Source: Deinococci bacterium | GTDB taxonomy: Bacteria > Deinococcota > Deinococci > Deinococcales > Trueperaceae | Direction: 5' to 3' | Assembly: GCA_030149325.1 (NCBI GenBank) | Contig: JASBRS010000074.1 | Coordinates: 1 to 35,250, forward strand | DNA: 35,250 bases | Shown: positions 17,746 through 27,616 of the stretch, piece after piece | Layout: each line of letters begins with the position of its first letter | How positions within the stretch are numbered: position 1 is the first letter of the stretch | Notes under the pieces: model-generated | The model's input: only the letters and a program-made list of their open reading frames with translations | What the model was told of the DNA's origin: nothing | Databases searched by the model: none | Program-made: the position numbers and the translations under genes

Positions 17746-19851
17746 TCAGCTCGCCTTCAGCACCAGGGCCACCTCGGACTCGAGGCGGAACAGGTCCCGG
17801 AGGAAGCTCCTCAGGGCGTTGGGGTCGTTCAGGTGGCTGCAGTCGATGAGCCGGCGCGGCGTGAGGGCGTAGGCCTGGGGGGCCGTGCCGGAACCGAGCT
17901 GCTCGTCGAGGCGGAGCAGGACCTCGTTCGGGGCCCCCACCGTGACCTGGGCGTCGTCGAGCTCGAGCATCCGCCCGCCGCGTCGGTCCATGGCCAGCAC
18001 CGGATGCCGGGTGACGCGGCCCAGCAAGCGACGTTGCTGGCGCTCGCCGGCGATCAGCACGAGCACCGGGCTGCGGTAGTGCAGGTGGCACGTCCCGCCG
18101 AGCTGCTGGCGCGCGAGGCGCAGCAACACCTCGTCGTCGAGCTCGCTCTGGTGCCCATCGACGGGATGGGCGCCGAAGGCCACGGCCCGCAGCAGGCGCT
18201 CCTCGGGGAGGTAGCGCACCTCGGCCTGGAGACGCGCCGGGTCGGCCCCCAACCTCACCGCCTCGCCCTCGACCTCGCGCAGCAGCAGATCGCCGACGGT
18301 GGGGTCGTCGATGCGGGCGTTGCGCTCGCGCTCCACCCGGATCAGCGTCAGGGCCGCCCCGACGCTCGAGATCACGTCGGGTTCGGGGACGCACTCGAAG
18401 GGGACCCCGAGGCGCCGGGCCACCACCGGCCCCAGCACCCGGGCGGCGCCGCCCCCGCCGTAAAGCGGGGTGCCCCTCAGCTCGTAGGCGTCGGCCAGCG
18501 CCCGAACGGTGTCGGTGAGCTTCTCGGCGGCCGCCTCCAGCACCGCCCGGGCGGCGGCCTCGACGTCGGCGTTCAGCTCACGCGCCAGGGCCGCCATGGC
18601 GATGCGGGCGGCCTCCGGCGGGCGCCGGGCGGGGTCGTCGTCGGGCAGGAGCTCGAGCGCGTTGGCCGCACAGGTCGGGGTGAGGGCGAAGCGTCCGCCG
18701 GCGGCCTCGAGGACGGCGTAGTCCGCCGGGTCGCCGGGTCGCGGGGCCGTGCGCACCAGGCGCGCGTCGGCGAGCTCGGCGGGATCGGCCAGCGAGGCGT
18801 AGCCCAACCCCGCGATGTGGGCGCTGCGGGGCCCGACCTCCTCGATGCGGCGGCCGCCGAGGCGCACCAGGCTGCCGCCGGCCACCCCAGCGATGCGGAT
18901 GTCGGCGGCCCGGAGGGCGGTGGGGAAGTCCATCACCGTCATGTGCTTCATCACCGGGCGGCCGGCGCGTACGGCGCCGATGTTGGTACTGGTTCCTCCG
19001 ACCTCGAACAGCACGCCGTCGCGGACCCCGTGGTGGAGGATGGCGCCCGCGAGCGACGCGGCCGGGCCGCTGACCACGGTGTGGATGGGGGCCTCGCGCA
19101 GGCCCTGCAGGTCGACGGCGCCGCCGTCGCCGCGCACGACCAGCAGCGGGACGTCGGGCAGGCGGCGCTCGAGGGCGCGCTCGACGTGCCCGGCGGTGCG
19201 CAGCATGATGGGCAGGATGGAGGCGTTGATGGCGGCGGTGCTCGAGCGCATCTCCAGGCCGTAGACGCCCGTCAGCTCGGCGCCGCCGGTGGCGGGCAGG
19301 CCGGCGTCGCGCACCAGTGCGCAGGCGCGGCGCTCGAGGCTGGGGTCGTCCACCGCGAACGCCTGACTGACGGCGACCGCCTCGACGCCCTCGGCGCGCC
19401 AGCGCTCGGCGACACCACGGACCCGCGCCTCGAAGTCGGTGGCGTCGCTGGGGACGAAGGCCCAGCGCAGCTCGAGCCTGCGGCCGCCGCCCGGCCTCAG
19501 CTCGGCCAGGCGCGTGCGGCGCGCGATCAAACGCTCGTCGGAGGCGGGCCCCAGCGCCAGCAGGCCTACGGTGGCCATGTCGCCCTCCAGCAGGGCGTTG
19601 GTCGCTTGGGTGGTGGCGTGGGCCACCAGGGCTACCGGCTGGCCCTCCGGGAGCTCGGCGAGCAGCGCGTCGAGGACCTCCACCACGCCGCTCACCACCC
19701 CCTCCTCGGCGCGGTGCGTGGTGGGGACGCGCGCTCGCGCGAACACCTCGCGGGTCACGGCGTCGAGGGCGACGCCCTTGGTGAAGGTGCCGCCGACGTC
19801 GATGCCGATGCGAACGGCGTTCCGGGGGGTCGTGGGAATCGTGGGGTTCAT
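17746..19851 (-). CDS. Hydantoinase A/oxoprolinase-like protein with an unfamiliar C-terminal region
   Basis: A 701-residue protein of the HyuA/OplA ATPase superfamily. Residues 13-190 hold the Hydant_A_N fold, starting VRIGIDVGGTFTKGVALD (the phosphate loop; GGTFTD is more usual) and including HATTQATNALLEGDMATVGLL. Residues 210-500 match Hydantoinase_A: GLEMRSSTAAINASILPIM, VVRGDGGAVDL, HTVVSGPAASLAGAI, VLFEVGGTSTNIG and YGGGGAARVLGP. The last 190 residues (for example PQAYALTPRRLIDCSHLND) are not the usual HyuA C-terminus and I do not recognise them. No HyuB-type partner gene is present. It sits 34 bases after FTR1 and 10 before the next gene, so it seems part of the iron operon. No clear ribosome-binding site precedes the ATG. 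Confidence 0.82.
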   Translation of the reverse strand: MNPTIPTTPRNAVRIGIDVGGTFTKGVALDAVTREVFARARVPTTHRAEEGVVSGVVEVLDALLAELPEGQPVALVAHATTQATNALLEGDMATVGLLALGPASDERLIARRTRLAELRPGGGRRLELRWAFVPSDATDFEARVRGVAERWRAEGVEAVAVSQAFAVDDPSLERRACALVRDAGLPATGGAELTGVYGLEMRSSTAAINASILPIMLRTAGHVERALERRLPDVPLLVVRGDGGAVDLQGLREAPIHTVVSGPAASLAGAILHHGVRDGVLFEVGGTSTNIGAVRAGRPVMKHMTVMDFPTALRAADIRIAGVAGGSLVRLGGRRIEEVGPRSAHIAGLGYASLADPAELADARLVRTAPRPGDPADYAVLEAAGGRFALTPTCAANALELLPDDDPARRPPEAARIAMAALARELNADVEAAARAVLEAAAEKLTDTVRALADAYELRGTPLYGGGGAARVLGPVVARRLGVPFECVPEPDVISSVGAALTLIRVERERNARIDDPTVGDLLLREVEGEAVRLGADPARLQAEVRYLPEERLLRAVAFGAHPVDGHQSELDDEVLLRLARQQLGGTCHLHYRSPVLVLIAGERQQRRLLGRVTRHPVLAMDRRGGRMLELDDAQVTVGAPNEVLLRLDEQLGSGTAPQAYALTPRRLIDCSHLNDPNALRSFLRDLFRLESEVALVLKAS

Positions 19852-19885: not shown

Positions 19886-21160
19886 TCAGCTCGTGGGAGC
19901 GTCGCCGGCAGCGGTGCCTGCGCTCCGACGGCGGAGGCTGGCGCGGCGCAGCAGGAATGCTACCATCCCGGCGGCGTAGACCGTGATCAGGCCGGCCTGC
20001 GCCAGGACGGTCTCGAGCGTGGGGTGGAAGCCCGTCAGGGCAGCCAGACTCGGGTTGAGGCGGGGCAGCGTCCCCAGCAGGTTGGTGATCGGCAGCCAAC
20101 CGGCACCTTGCAGCGCGCGCACGGCGTTGCCGGCGAAGGCCACGGCCAGCAGGGCGGTGACGGTGACGGCGATGCGGAAGAAGATCTGCAGCGGGAGGCG
20201 ACGTTGCAGCCGGAGGATGGCGAACGCCACGAGCCCCAGCGCCACCACGGCGGCGCCGAGCCCGAGCCACAGGAACCCCATGACCGGGCCGCTCACGCCC
20301 ACCAGCGCCTGGTAGAGCAGCACCGTCTCGAACCCCTCGCGGTAGACGCTGGCGAAGGCGGCGCCGCCGACCGCCAGCAGGCTCCCGCGCTGCACCGCCT
20401 GCCCCAGCCGCGCCCGCATGTACTCCATGTGCCGCCTGCGATCGCTCTGCTGGAGCATCCAGAAGCTCAGGTAGAAGAGGATGCCCACCGCCACCACGCT
20501 GGTGATCCCGGAGAGCAGCTCACGCGAGGCGGGCGCCACGCGCAGCACGCTCGAGGCCGCCACGTAGGTCAGGACGGTGGCTGCCAGCGCCGCCGCCAGA
20601 CCGTACCAGACGCCCGGAGCCAGCCGGCTGTTGCGGGTGCTGCGCAGGTACGCCAGGATCGAGCCCAGCAGGAGCACCACCTCGAGCCCCTCCCGGAACA
20701 GGATGAAGAAGCTGCTCCCGGCCGCCAGCGTGGGCGCCAGCGCCCCGGTGCCGCTGACCACCGTTTCGGCGCGCGTCAGGTTGCCGTAGATGCGGCTGGC
20801 CGTCGCCTCCAGCTCGCTCATGGGGACGCCCGCGCGCATGCCGTTGCGGAGGTTGGCGAACAGGAACTCGGTGTCGAGGATCAGGTCGGGGTCGAGCACG
20901 CGCAGGGTGGGCTCGGCGTACTCGAAGTGGTCGAGGTAGGCCGACCGGGAGAGCTGGAAGGCCTGGTCGACGTGGCCCTCGCGGTAGGCGCGGAGGCTCG
21001 ACGCGACCAGATCGTGGGCGACGTGCAGCTCGGACGCCACGTCGACCTTCTGGGCGTGGGCGAACGGCGTCAGGGCCGCCCATAGAGCGGCGATCGTCGC
21101 CAGCGCGAGCAGCTGGCCGAGGCGCCTCCGCGGCGCCGGGGCCGCGACCGCCCCCTTCAC
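19886..21160 (-). CDS. FTR1-family iron permease with an N-terminal extracytoplasmic domain
   Basis: A 424-residue high-affinity iron transporter like EfeU/FTR1. A signal-like N-terminus (about 14-36) is followed by a helical domain of about 100 residues containing AYLDHFEYAEP (74-84). The permease core has seven or so membrane segments from about 148 on. Both iron-binding REGxE motifs are present: R156-E157-G158-L159-E160 (FREGLEVVLLL) and R274-E275-G276-F277-E278 (YREGFETVLLY). The N-terminal domain is repeated in the upstream secreted protein. The ATG overlaps the upstream stop by four bases. The operator upstream of the operon suggests control by iron or Fe-S status. Confidence 0.92.
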   Translation of the reverse strand: MKGAVAAPAPRRRLGQLLALATIAALWAALTPFAHAQKVDVASELHVAHDLVASSLRAYREGHVDQAFQLSRSAYLDHFEYAEPTLRVLDPDLILDTEFLFANLRNGMRAGVPMSELEATASRIYGNLTRAETVVSGTGALAPTLAAGSSFFILFREGLEVVLLLGSILAYLRSTRNSRLAPGVWYGLAAALAATVLTYVAASSVLRVAPASRELLSGITSVVAVGILFYLSFWMLQQSDRRRHMEYMRARLGQAVQRGSLLAVGGAAFASVYREGFETVLLYQALVGVSGPVMGFLWLGLGAAVVALGLVAFAILRLQRRLPLQIFFRIAVTVTALLAVAFAGNAVRALQGAGWLPITNLLGTLPRLNPSLAALTGFHPTLETVLAQAGLITVYAAGMVAFLLRRASLRRRSAGTAAGDAPTS

Positions 21161-22104
21161 GGCAGGGCCTGCCGGGCCTGGGCCAGGTCGGCGCGGGTGG
21201 CATCGAGGGCCCGGTCGAAGGCGTCCACCGTCGCGCCCTGGCGGATCATGCCGCGCAGCTCGTCGCGCAGGGCGTGCTCGAGGCGGTCCTTCAGCGCCGG
21301 GCTCACGGCCTCGAGCGGCGGCTCGAGGTCCTCGAAGTGCTCGAGGTAGGCGTCGATGAGGGCCTCCTCGGCGCCGGCGGCATCGCCAGCGGCGTAGCGC
21401 GTCTGCGCGCTCGCCAGGTCATCGGCGATCGCCTGGAAGGCGCGCGCTCGGTCGACCCGTGCGGGCGCGGCCCCCAGCGCGGACAGGGCGGTGTCGGCGG
21501 TGGAGGCGACGAGCTCGGCGTCGGTCGGCGCGCGCAGGCTCCCGGCCAGGGTCTCCAGCGCTCCGATCGCCGTCGCCTGGAGGCGATGGGCGCGTGCGAC
21601 GTCGAGGGCGACGGCCGCCAGTGCGCGGCCGTAGGCGGCGGGCTCGCTCCCGCCGCCGCGGGCGGCCTCGCGCCCCTCGGTGCCGGCATCCCGGACCAGC
21701 TCGGCGACCACCGAGCGGACCGCGTCGGTGGCGGCGGTCGGGCTCAGCGCCGCGCGGGCGGCGTCGTCGATGCGCCGGACCGCGTCGGCGGCGGCTGCGG
21801 CGTCGCCCGTCTCGACCGCCTTGCGCAGGTCGGCCAGGTGCGCACCCACGGCGGCACCCTCGGGGAGGGCCGCCAGGGGACCCGACACGGCGCGGTCGAG
21901 CTGGACGGCGGCGTCGTCGCGCTGGCCTTCGGCGGCGAGCGCGGCGGCGGCGCGGGCACGGGCGTCGAGCCGGAACAGGTTCACGGCGTCCGAGGCGGGA
22001 GCTTCGGCGTGAGCCGAGGGCCACGCCAGGGCGGCAACGAGCAGGAGGGCGATGGGGACCAGCGTCGAGCGCGGCGCGGCGGCGCCGGGGGAGAGCCAGG
22101 GCAT
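21157..22104 (-). CDS. Secreted helical protein with an FTR1-like periplasmic domain
   Basis: A 315-residue exported protein. The signal peptide is MPWLSPGAAAPRSTLVPIAL and following (hydrophobic to about 27, AHA cleavage region). The rest is alanine-rich and helical. The C-terminal 95 residues align with the extracytoplasmic domain of the adjacent FTR1: AYLEHFEDLEP (252-262) matches AYLDHFEYAEP, followed by alignable segments at similar spacing. The glutamates and histidine of this motif are likely metal ligands. It is the first gene of the operon, preceded by about 107 bases of untranslated leader. A role as iron-binding partner of FTR1, like EfeO, is inference. Confidence 0.8.
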   Translation of the reverse strand: MPWLSPGAAAPRSTLVPIALLLVAALAWPSAHAEAPASDAVNLFRLDARARAAAALAAEGQRDDAAVQLDRAVSGPLAALPEGAAVGAHLADLRKAVETGDAAAAADAVRRIDDAARAALSPTAATDAVRSVVAELVRDAGTEGREAARGGGSEPAAYGRALAAVALDVARAHRLQATAIGALETLAGSLRAPTDAELVASTADTALSALGAAPARVDRARAFQAIADDLASAQTRYAAGDAAGAEEALIDAYLEHFEDLEPPLEAVSPALKDRLEHALRDELRGMIRQGATVDAFDRALDATRADLAQARQALP

Positions 22105-22182: not shown

Positions 22183-22211
22183 TGATACCCGAGTGAACGA
22201 CTCAGGTATCA
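22183..22211 (-). promoter_or_regulatory. 29-bp inverted repeat, Rrf2/IscR type-1-like operator at the iron operon start
   Basis: Minus-strand arms TGATACCTGAGT and ACTCGGGTATCA, complementary at 11 of 12 positions, around a five-base centre (CGTTC). The layout ATA-S-YY-GAnT-N5-AnTC-RR-S-TAT matches the E. coli IscR type-1 site (GACT/AGTC) except that the inner bases are GAGT/ACTC. It begins just after the -10 box, covering the expected transcription start, so a bound protein would repress. The regulator gene is not in the window. Confidence 0.65.
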
Positions 22212-22217
22212 AGGTCG

Positions 22218-22247
22218 AGTGTATCGACGGGCGTTTCGGGGTGTCAA
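22218..22247 (-). promoter_or_regulatory. Strong sigma-70-like promoter of the iron operon
   Basis: TTGACA (22247-22242), an 18-base spacer and TACACT (22223-22218). This is the only perfect -35 hexamer I see in the window. It lies just after the stop of the protease gene. Confidence 0.8.
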
Positions 22248-22269: not shown

Positions 22270-24177
22270 CTACTGGGGCGTGAGCGTCACCGTGGCTGCC
22301 GGGGGAGGCGCGTCGAAGGCGACCGCCACCTGGGCGCTGCCCAGGAGCTCGCCCGGGGCGTCTCCCAGGGTGCCGTTGCCGCCGTCGTCGGTGCCCGCGA
22401 CCAGGATCACGGTCCCGGCGGCAACGTTGGGCACCGTGAAGGGCACGTCGCGGACCACGGCGAAGCTGCGGCCGTCGCCGATCTTCAGGATCAGCGGCGT
22501 GCCCGACGCGAGGGCGGACTTCGAGGCGAGGGCGTCGACGCGGCCGTAGCCGAAGAGGTCGTCGCGGCCCGGCGTGCCGAGGTCGACGGCGCCGTCCGCC
22601 AGCGCGCCGGCGACCTGATCGACGCTGGCCCCCGGGCGGAGGGTCAGGAGCTGGGCCGCCAGACCCGCCACCGCCGGACTCGCCATGCTGGTCCCGAGGT
22701 CGTAGGCGTAGACGTGGGTCGGCGGGGTCTGGTTGAGATCGAGCCAGGTGCTGAGCACCCAGTCGGTGGCGAAGCTGCCGGCGTCGACGGCGGTTCCGCC
22801 ACCGGGCGCGGAGACGAACACCTCGGGACCGCGATCGCTGTAGTAGGCGATGTCGTCGGTCCGGGTGGTCGCGCCCACGGCCAGCACCTCGGGGTAGGCG
22901 GCGGGGTAGACGACGGGGGTGGGCTGGGTGGTGGTGTCGTTGCCGGAGGCGGCCACCAGCACGATGCCGGCAGCCTGGGCCGCGGCCAAGGCGTCCTCGA
23001 CGCCCTGCCCCAGCGGTCCGGAGGTCCCGAGGCTCATGTTGACGACGCGGGCGAGCGACGCACCGCCGTGGGTCACGTGTCCGAGGCCGGCGATCAGGGC
23101 AGGCGTCTTCATCGCGCAGGCGGCATCGGCGGGATCGCCCAGGTTGACCAGCAGCAGGCCCGCGCCCGGCGCCACGCCGGCGACCCCCAGGGCGTTGCCG
23201 GCGGTCGCCGCCACGATGCCGGCGACGTGGGTGCCGTGCGACCCGCAGGCGGTGTTGGTGACGGTCACGTCGCTGCCGCCGGAGACGGCGTCGTAGGTGC
23301 CGACGATGGCGCTCGAGAGGTCGGGGTGCGCGGGATCGAAGCCTCGGTCGAGCACCGCCACGGTGGCTCCGGTGCCGTCGCCGCTCGGCCACGACGGCTC
23401 GGCCCCGATGACGTCGAGGTTCCACTGCTGGCTGCGGTAGGTGTCGTTGGACAGGGCGTCGAGGGGAAGGGCGGCCTCGACGTAGCGTACGCCGGGAAGC
23501 CGGGCCAGGCGATCGGCCGCCGCCGTCGCATCGCGGACGTGGACCGTGACGACGCCGGCAGCGGCGAAGGCGCTGCGCACCTCCACCCCCGCGATCTGGC
23601 GCAGGGCCGCGAGCGGCAGCTCCGCGGCCTGGCTCGGGACCTTGCCGACGCCGACGATCAGATCGGCGGGCCCGGCGGGGAAGGTGTGCAGCCTGGGGTC
23701 GACGGCGCGGGCCGTCGACGCCTGGGAGGCCAGCGCCTGGGACGACAGGGTGTCGCCTCGCGTCACCGTCACGGTGACGTCGGGGAAGCTGAAGGGCAGG
23801 CTGGCGCTGACGCTGCCACCGGAATCCGTCAGCGTCAGCCCGATGGCGTAGCTGGCGGGCGCGAGCCCGCTGGGGTCGACCGCGAGGTCGACCGTGGCGT
23901 TGCCGCGGCCGGAGGCCGGCTGCAGCGAGACCCAAGCGGGGCGGTCCGTCGTCAGGCTCCATGCGCCGTCGGCGGTGACCTGCACGACGGCCGTCGTGAC
24001 GCCGTTCATGACCCCCGGGGTCACCGCGATCGCGGCGGTGGGGGAGGGGACGGGGGCCGGCGGCTGCACCACCTGGCAGGCGGGAAGCGCGCAGGTCACG
24101 ACCAGGACGAAGGCAGCGAGGGCGGCCGTGCGGCGCCCGCGGCGGGGCGGTGCGTTCCTTGGCTCGGTCGTTCGCAT
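22270..24177 (-). CDS. S8 (subtilisin-like) serine protease, lipoprotein with BACON-like domain
   Basis: A 635-residue secreted protease. The N-terminus has a lipobox (ALPAC, C34), so it is likely anchored to a membrane. Residues about 48-135 resemble a BACON/Ig-like domain (WSLTTDRPAWVSLQPASG). Residues 170-235 look like an I9 propeptide (LARLPGVRYVEA). The peptidase domain has D277 (VAVLDRGFD), H314 (SHGTHVAGI), N413 (ASGN) and S497 (GTSMASPAVAG), a full catalytic set. A C-terminal beta-rich domain of about 75 residues follows. The ATG at 24177 has GAGGAGGG upstream and a TATGCT box before that. No substrate or partner is evident. Confidence 0.9.
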   Translation of the reverse strand: MRTTEPRNAPPRRGRRTAALAAFVLVVTCALPACQVVQPPAPVPSPTAAIAVTPGVMNGVTTAVVQVTADGAWSLTTDRPAWVSLQPASGRGNATVDLAVDPSGLAPASYAIGLTLTDSGGSVSASLPFSFPDVTVTVTRGDTLSSQALASQASTARAVDPRLHTFPAGPADLIVGVGKVPSQAAELPLAALRQIAGVEVRSAFAAAGVVTVHVRDATAAADRLARLPGVRYVEAALPLDALSNDTYRSQQWNLDVIGAEPSWPSGDGTGATVAVLDRGFDPAHPDLSSAIVGTYDAVSGGSDVTVTNTACGSHGTHVAGIVAATAGNALGVAGVAPGAGLLLVNLGDPADAACAMKTPALIAGLGHVTHGGASLARVVNMSLGTSGPLGQGVEDALAAAQAAGIVLVAASGNDTTTQPTPVVYPAAYPEVLAVGATTRTDDIAYYSDRGPEVFVSAPGGGTAVDAGSFATDWVLSTWLDLNQTPPTHVYAYDLGTSMASPAVAGLAAQLLTLRPGASVDQVAGALADGAVDLGTPGRDDLFGYGRVDALASKSALASGTPLILKIGDGRSFAVVRDVPFTVPNVAAGTVILVAGTDDGGNGTLGDAPGELLGSAQVAVAFDAPPPAATVTLTPQ

Positions 24178-24292: not shown

Positions 24293-27616
<3,324 letters not shown>

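Follow-up and report, generated by a model that had tools for sequence, protein, structure and literature searches.

Iron control through Rrf2-family regulators, known and proposed

Outside the Alphaproteobacteria, iron uptake is usually ascribed to Fur or DtxR. In rhizobia, the Rrf2-family Fe-S sensor RirA represses iron-uptake genes when iron is sufficient (PMC5863699). The type-1 sites of Escherichia coli IscR follow the 25-bp dyad consensus ATASYYGACTRWWWYAGTCRRSTAT (PMC3899308); footprinted IscR type-1 sites of Pseudomonas aeruginosa carry GAGT, GAGG, CTCGG and ACTCGG, and the footprinted tpx site reads AAACCCGAGGTTTTCGCTCGGGTAA (PMC6599224). The regulon of the IscR-type protein in Caulobacter overlaps iron homeostasis, as proposed here for Trueperaceae; there, however, Fur shares control, and the type-I motif is A-rich, unlike the Trueperaceae motif (PMC11475020). 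RisR of Myxococcus xanthus is likewise a three-cysteine Rrf2 repressor outside the IscR clade, but it binds Tt/gGAC-N7-GTCCt/a at isc and suf promoters and not at iron-uptake genes (PMC9973013).

The window analyzed here, a stretch of 35,250 nucleotides taken as a whole, belongs to a 3.04-Mb genome bin (G000), and its relatives are Trueperaceae, a family of the phylum Deinococcota with kinship to Deinococcus and Thermus. Like the IscR type-1 sites known from E. coli isc and from P. aeruginosa iscR/tpx, the candidate operator in this window and its counterparts in the family have a layout of 25 bp with AT-rich ends and YYGA-S-T inner arms; they, too, overlap promoter elements and occur in tandem. 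Few positions separate the Trueperaceae consensus from the P. aeruginosa tpx site (PMC6599224). In contrast to IscR type-1 sites, the Trueperaceae motif marks iron uptake and not Fe-S biogenesis, GAGT/ACTC outnumbers GACT/AGTC, and the rrf2-nifS and suf promoters of the window genome are without a type-1-like motif. The predicted sites outline a regulon of iron-uptake genes, as in RirA; yet the operator is IscR type-1-like and not the shorter IRO box, and the bacteria are Deinococcota instead of Alphaproteobacteria. Searches of the open-licence literature for the motif, Deinococcus-Thermus IscR, Thermus Rrf2 and Trueperaceae iron regulation found no description of this regulon.

The FTR1 promoter and its inverted repeat

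The 29-bp inverted repeat TGATACCCGAGTGAACGACTCAGGTATCA was read at positions 22183–22211 (no strand assigned), exactly as first described; sequence, shuffles and comparison with relatives mark it as a predicted IscR type-1-like operator. Its TGATACC/GGTATCA arms and inner GAGT/ACTC pair perfectly, with one mismatched pair (C/A) and a 5-nt centre, and its 25-bp core ATACCCGAGTGAACGACTCAGGTAT occupies 22185–22209. The predicted TTGACA-N18-TACACT promoter was also recovered on the minus strand, with the −35 element at 22242–22247 and, 18 bp from it, the −10 element at 22218–22223; the predicted start at about 22211 coincides with the edge of the repeat, and the operator spans +1 to about +27, over the predicted start site.

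This promoter and TGATACCCGAGTGAACGACTCAGGTATCA precede a two-gene FTR1 iron-permease operon on the minus strand. The first gene (21157–22104) encodes an exported protein of 315 aa with a signal peptide and without Pfam or NCBIfam match, one part of which is similar to the N-terminal part of the FTR1 protein; it shares a 4 bp overlap with the gene for the FTR1/EfeU-type iron permease itself (19886–21160; 424 aa; PF03239, E 2.4e-17), which contains the two REGxE motifs FREGLE and YREGFE. Beyond FTR1, after a gap of 34 bp, the minus strand continues with a gene for a hydantoinase/oxoprolinase A-type protein (17746–19851) that is possibly co-transcribed with it. Upstream of the operon, a subtilase (Peptidase_S8) gene on the minus strand (22270–24177) has its stop at 22270, 22 bp before the −35 element, so that the operator lies outside the subtilase coding sequence. 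A large BTAD-AAA-TPR regulator is encoded upstream of the subtilase at 24293–27616; no relation to the operator was seen.

The IscR type-1 layout that had been proposed for the repeat is borne out by its match to the E. coli consensus at 21 of 25 positions, compared to 18 for the next best place in the window; by the same count, footprinted P. aeruginosa sites match at 17 and 20 positions. The inner GAGT/ACTC in place of GACT/AGTC is indeed present, but it is no departure from IscR sites, as the footprinted P. aeruginosa sites show. A matrix derived from the Trueperaceae sites assigned scores of 16.1, 17.6 and 21.3 to the footprinted P. aeruginosa iscR A/B and tpx sites, each above all 5000 shuffles, whereas the nfuA site of the same species failed (−18.3). 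The boxes of Fur, DtxR, Zur, PerR, NsrR, MntR, NikR, RisR and RirA scored at background with this matrix.

Distribution of the motif in Trueperaceae

Across 39 Trueperaceae genomes, the 25-bp element has the consensus AWWCCCGAGTnnnnnACTCGGGWWT. Many of the genomes compared are drafts, and gene starts were taken from the sequence. The family matrix was built from 20 sites and scored against a GC-rich background; a sequence-only model was applied as well. The motif scored at least 14 within 200 bp upstream of 27 of the 30 fbpA-type ferric-iron-binding-protein genes that were fetched by protein similarity (eight of these 30 promoters had served in building the matrix), compared to 0 of 600 shuffled promoters (maximum 12.9). 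One of these FbpA-type proteins matches solved FbpA structures with E values down to 1.7e-91. The sequence-only model returned 12 family sites outside its building set; ten of them are located at genes for iron-binding proteins, an iron-transporter ATPase, imelysin or rrf2. The refuting outcome named at the outset, a repeat that mainly accompanies unrelated genes, did not occur: in the relatives it accompanies mainly iron genes. The two other model sites, strong copies at non-iron genes, stand at an amidase gene (L241:1873, G013) and at a gene without Pfam match (L243:2062, G012).

A pattern search of the relatives also found the dyad, within the family, before ferric-iron ABC transporters and a siderophore-type binding protein, as well as before FeoB and a Fur-like gene. 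In G005 and G019 the motif occurs at FecB-type proteins (Peripla_BP_2) that bind siderophores or heme; further targets are FeoB (G022), imelysin (G017) and imelysin-FTR1 (G042, with a weaker match in G054). In a neighboring family of the order (f3), the motif stands a few bases before the start of a SufT-like Fe-S assembly gene (PF01883) in at least eight genomes (L012–L016, L018, L019, L233, L235, L237, L240). These comparisons identify the predicted site at 22183–22211 as one member of a family-wide regulon, not peculiar to the FTR1 operon. With up to three mismatches, the operator pattern occurs at this single place in the 3.04-Mb window genome. A search of this genome found no close FbpA; most of its iron may therefore enter through FTR1, and this would account for the single operator site.

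Two promoter arrangements recur. In the arrangement found in the window (G000) and, in a like layout before fbpA, in six relatives (G014, G016, G022, G023, G037, G038), TTGAC-N17/18-TAnnnT is followed 7–12 bp on by the operator, at the start site. In seven other promoters (G003, G006, G010, G012, G017, G018, G035), an operator ending in GGGTAT runs straight into TGAC and overlaps the −35 element (GGGTATTGAC); these promoters carry a second operator copy 57–68 bp downstream. Overlap with promoter elements of a kind that would block RNA polymerase, as at IscR type-1 sites, is found in the family at the start site or at the −35 element, and these predicted positions fit a repressor.

Candidate regulators and the proposed circuit

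The window genome contains exactly one Rrf2-family gene above the Pfam cutoff; it encodes the three cysteines that the original prediction had called for and is followed by a cysteine desulfurase gene (rrf2-nifS). The 154-aa protein (G000:C28:35796-36257) belongs to the Rrf2 superfamily by PF02082 (127.2, cutoff 30) and TIGR00738 (132.5, cutoff 73.3); its scores fall below the curated cutoffs for IscR (TIGR02010, 102.7 vs. 207.55; PRK10857, 84.4 vs. 275), RirA (PRK11920, 73.6 vs. 193), CymR and NsrR, with the consequence that it is classed, by sequence, only as an Rrf2-superfamily, IscR-like regulator. Relatives of this protein occur in 109 of the 111 genomes of the order. The cysteines are arranged as C-x6-C-x5-C (CIDDEGTCERVGHC) in the loop before the dimer helix and are conserved, with spacings of x5 to x7, in group-A orthologues; the fourth E. 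coli position is Glu, not His. The closest solved relative is PDB 4CIC (E 2.7e-29), the IscR of Thermincola potens, a protein known for the control of Fe-S biogenesis; it is not known to have a role in iron uptake. The DNA contacts Tyr41, Glu43, Gln44 and Arg59 of E. coli IscR (PMC11475020) are kept in the window-genome protein, and Ser40 is replaced by Gln.

The window genome has, besides its one Rrf2 protein, two Fur-family proteins and one DtxR protein, and all three types are present in nearly all Trueperaceae genomes; co-occurrence within the family therefore cannot single out the regulator. The search for the motif at suf/isc genes, as first suggested, failed in the window genome. In relatives it precedes rrf2-nifS in G004 (17.7), G028 (17.5) and, weakly, G012 (14.9), against a chance level of about one match above 15 per 500 kb, and the G028 site was returned by the sequence-only model although it was absent from the building set of that model. 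The rrf2-nifS promoter of the window genome carries a Fur-type palindrome instead, and none of 30 sufB upstream regions scored above 14, except that L266 has a match of 16.9 at the distal end of its locus. In G042, an order-mate, a tight operon joins imelysin and FTR1 to a gene for a three-cysteine Rrf2 protein (L279:4-3773), the rrf2 start directly following the FTR1 stop, under a promoter with a motif score of 28.2 located 18 bp before the first start codon; this rrf2 is a second paralogue, and the FTR1-rrf2 operon is found in one of 111 genomes.

The Fur-type palindrome is a separate element with 7-1-7 symmetry, TCGGAAnnnTTCCGA. Of the rrf2-nifS promoters of Trueperaceae that were read, roughly one in three carries it in this form or as a close variant; the window-genome version is CCTCGGAATCATTCCGAGG (L001:1455-1469, G000:C28). 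It also precedes the PerR/Irr-like fur gene, as AATCGGAAGCGTTCCGATT in the window genome (L281 near 1587, G000:C10) and in G004 and G023, and in G024 it stands before a gene for a dps-like ferritin; coordinates recorded for the palindrome also include L229:46, L130:1367 and L132:1995. Since 7-1-7 symmetry is that of Fur-family boxes, TCGGAAnnnTTCCGA is probably the box of a Fur-family protein. The second Fur-family gene of the window genome adjoins znuA and is probably Zur.

The element at 22183–22211 is almost certainly, on comparative grounds, an operator for an iron-uptake repressor, and it is likely read by the three-cysteine Rrf2 protein rather than by Fur or DtxR. Another iron sensor acting at a genuine iron-uptake operator is improbable; the most plausible one would be the single DtxR-family protein, since iron or manganese uptake is commonly under DtxR proteins, and these occur in 38 of 39 Trueperaceae genomes, the window genome included. 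However, DtxR/IdeR boxes are about 19 bp long and of other sequence, an IdeR-type box scored at background with the family matrix, and the motif was found neither upstream of the window-genome DtxR gene nor at the DtxR loci fetched in relatives; the links between operator and regulator gene that were seen lead to rrf2 (G004, G028, G042) and none to dtxR. Recognition by a Fur-family protein (Fur, PerR, Irr or Zur) is very unlikely, even though two such genes exist in the window genome and, in G013, the motif stands before a divergent Fur-like gene. The 10-5-10 layout is unlike Fur, the G013 gene is apparently part of an iron operon and the arrangement is not universal, and the 7-1-7 palindrome at the PerR/Irr-like fur gene, rrf2-nifS and dps suits a Fur-family protein; the distinct palindrome at the fur-like gene itself led us to reject Fur as the reader of the operator.

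Two further explanations dispense with a DNA-binding protein, and each retains a negligible probability. The repeat could act as RNA, either as a 5′ stem-loop that stabilizes or attenuates the FTR1 mRNA or as a subtilase terminator: on the transcribed strand the mismatched pair becomes U-G, so that 12 bp pair without a break around a loop of 5 nt, and the 111-nt leader folds with z = −3.65. Yet in the seven relatives' promoters where one copy runs into the −35 element, this copy lies upstream of the transcript, which excludes an RNA hairpin as the common function, even if the window copy would form one; moreover, conservation covers the sequence and not pairing alone, a U-run after the repeat is absent, and the subtilase stop at 22270 lies upstream of a good promoter. 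A functionless chance palindrome would agree with the shuffles: a shuffled copy of the GC-rich window contains about one 12-5-12 inverted repeat with at least 11 pairs, like this one in length and number of mismatches, and the real window contains two. Taken by itself, the palindrome is therefore not significant. The specific operator pattern, for its part, had zero occurrences in shuffled windows, and most of the family keeps its sequence, spacing and promoter position at iron genes. The case for a predicted function comes from this comparison with relatives, which already refutes the chance reading, and not from the bare palindrome.

Overall, we favor, with good confidence, control of iron uptake by an Fe-S-sensing Rrf2 repressor that acts at an IscR type-1-like site and resembles RirA in its working. 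By analogy to RirA and IscR (PMC5863699, PMC6599224), cluster-dependent repression that is relieved by iron shortage appears quite probable. Binding of the site by the Rrf2 protein, a cluster on this protein and repression that gives way when iron is short are all inferred. In this model, a dimeric Rrf2 repressor with a three-cysteine Fe-S-cluster site would bind the 25-bp site as long as iron and Fe-S clusters suffice and, by covering +1 to about +27, would block the FTR1 promoter; upon iron shortage, the cluster would be lost or not built, the protein would leave, and FTR1 would be made. The palindromes at rrf2-nifS suggest that a Fur-type protein likely controls rrf2-nifS while Rrf2 controls iron uptake. 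With moderate confidence, this scheme may be extended to the Trueperaceae and probably the wider order: whole iron uptake would be under an Fe-S-sensing Rrf2 protein via IscR type-1-like operators, and the PerR/Irr-like Fur would control rrf2-nifS and dps. If true, a RirA-like regulator would have taken over iron control independently in Deinococcota, within a circuit of two tiers that leads from Fur to Rrf2; if Rrf2 reads the Trueperaceae operator, iron control by Fe-S status would have arisen more than once. The operator would also provide annotators with a concrete handle on iron genes in the mostly uncultured Trueperaceae.

Matches in bacteria outside the order were rejected as apparent chance matches, as a reversed-pattern control gave counts similar to the real ones. 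Within the order, matrix and model searches returned no strong sites in Thermaceae, despite close Rrf2 orthologues. A related promoter element with a consensus of about WAATCCGACYGGAATACTTGACTTT is shared by short FTR1 genes in Thermaceae and in other members of the order (L053:1296, L055:1295, L056:2503, L037:2417, L054:2377). In two Meiothermus-like genomes (L227:1501, G090; L236:1497, G089), the type-1-like palindrome is located where cas2 ends and the CRISPR leader starts, and not at iron genes.
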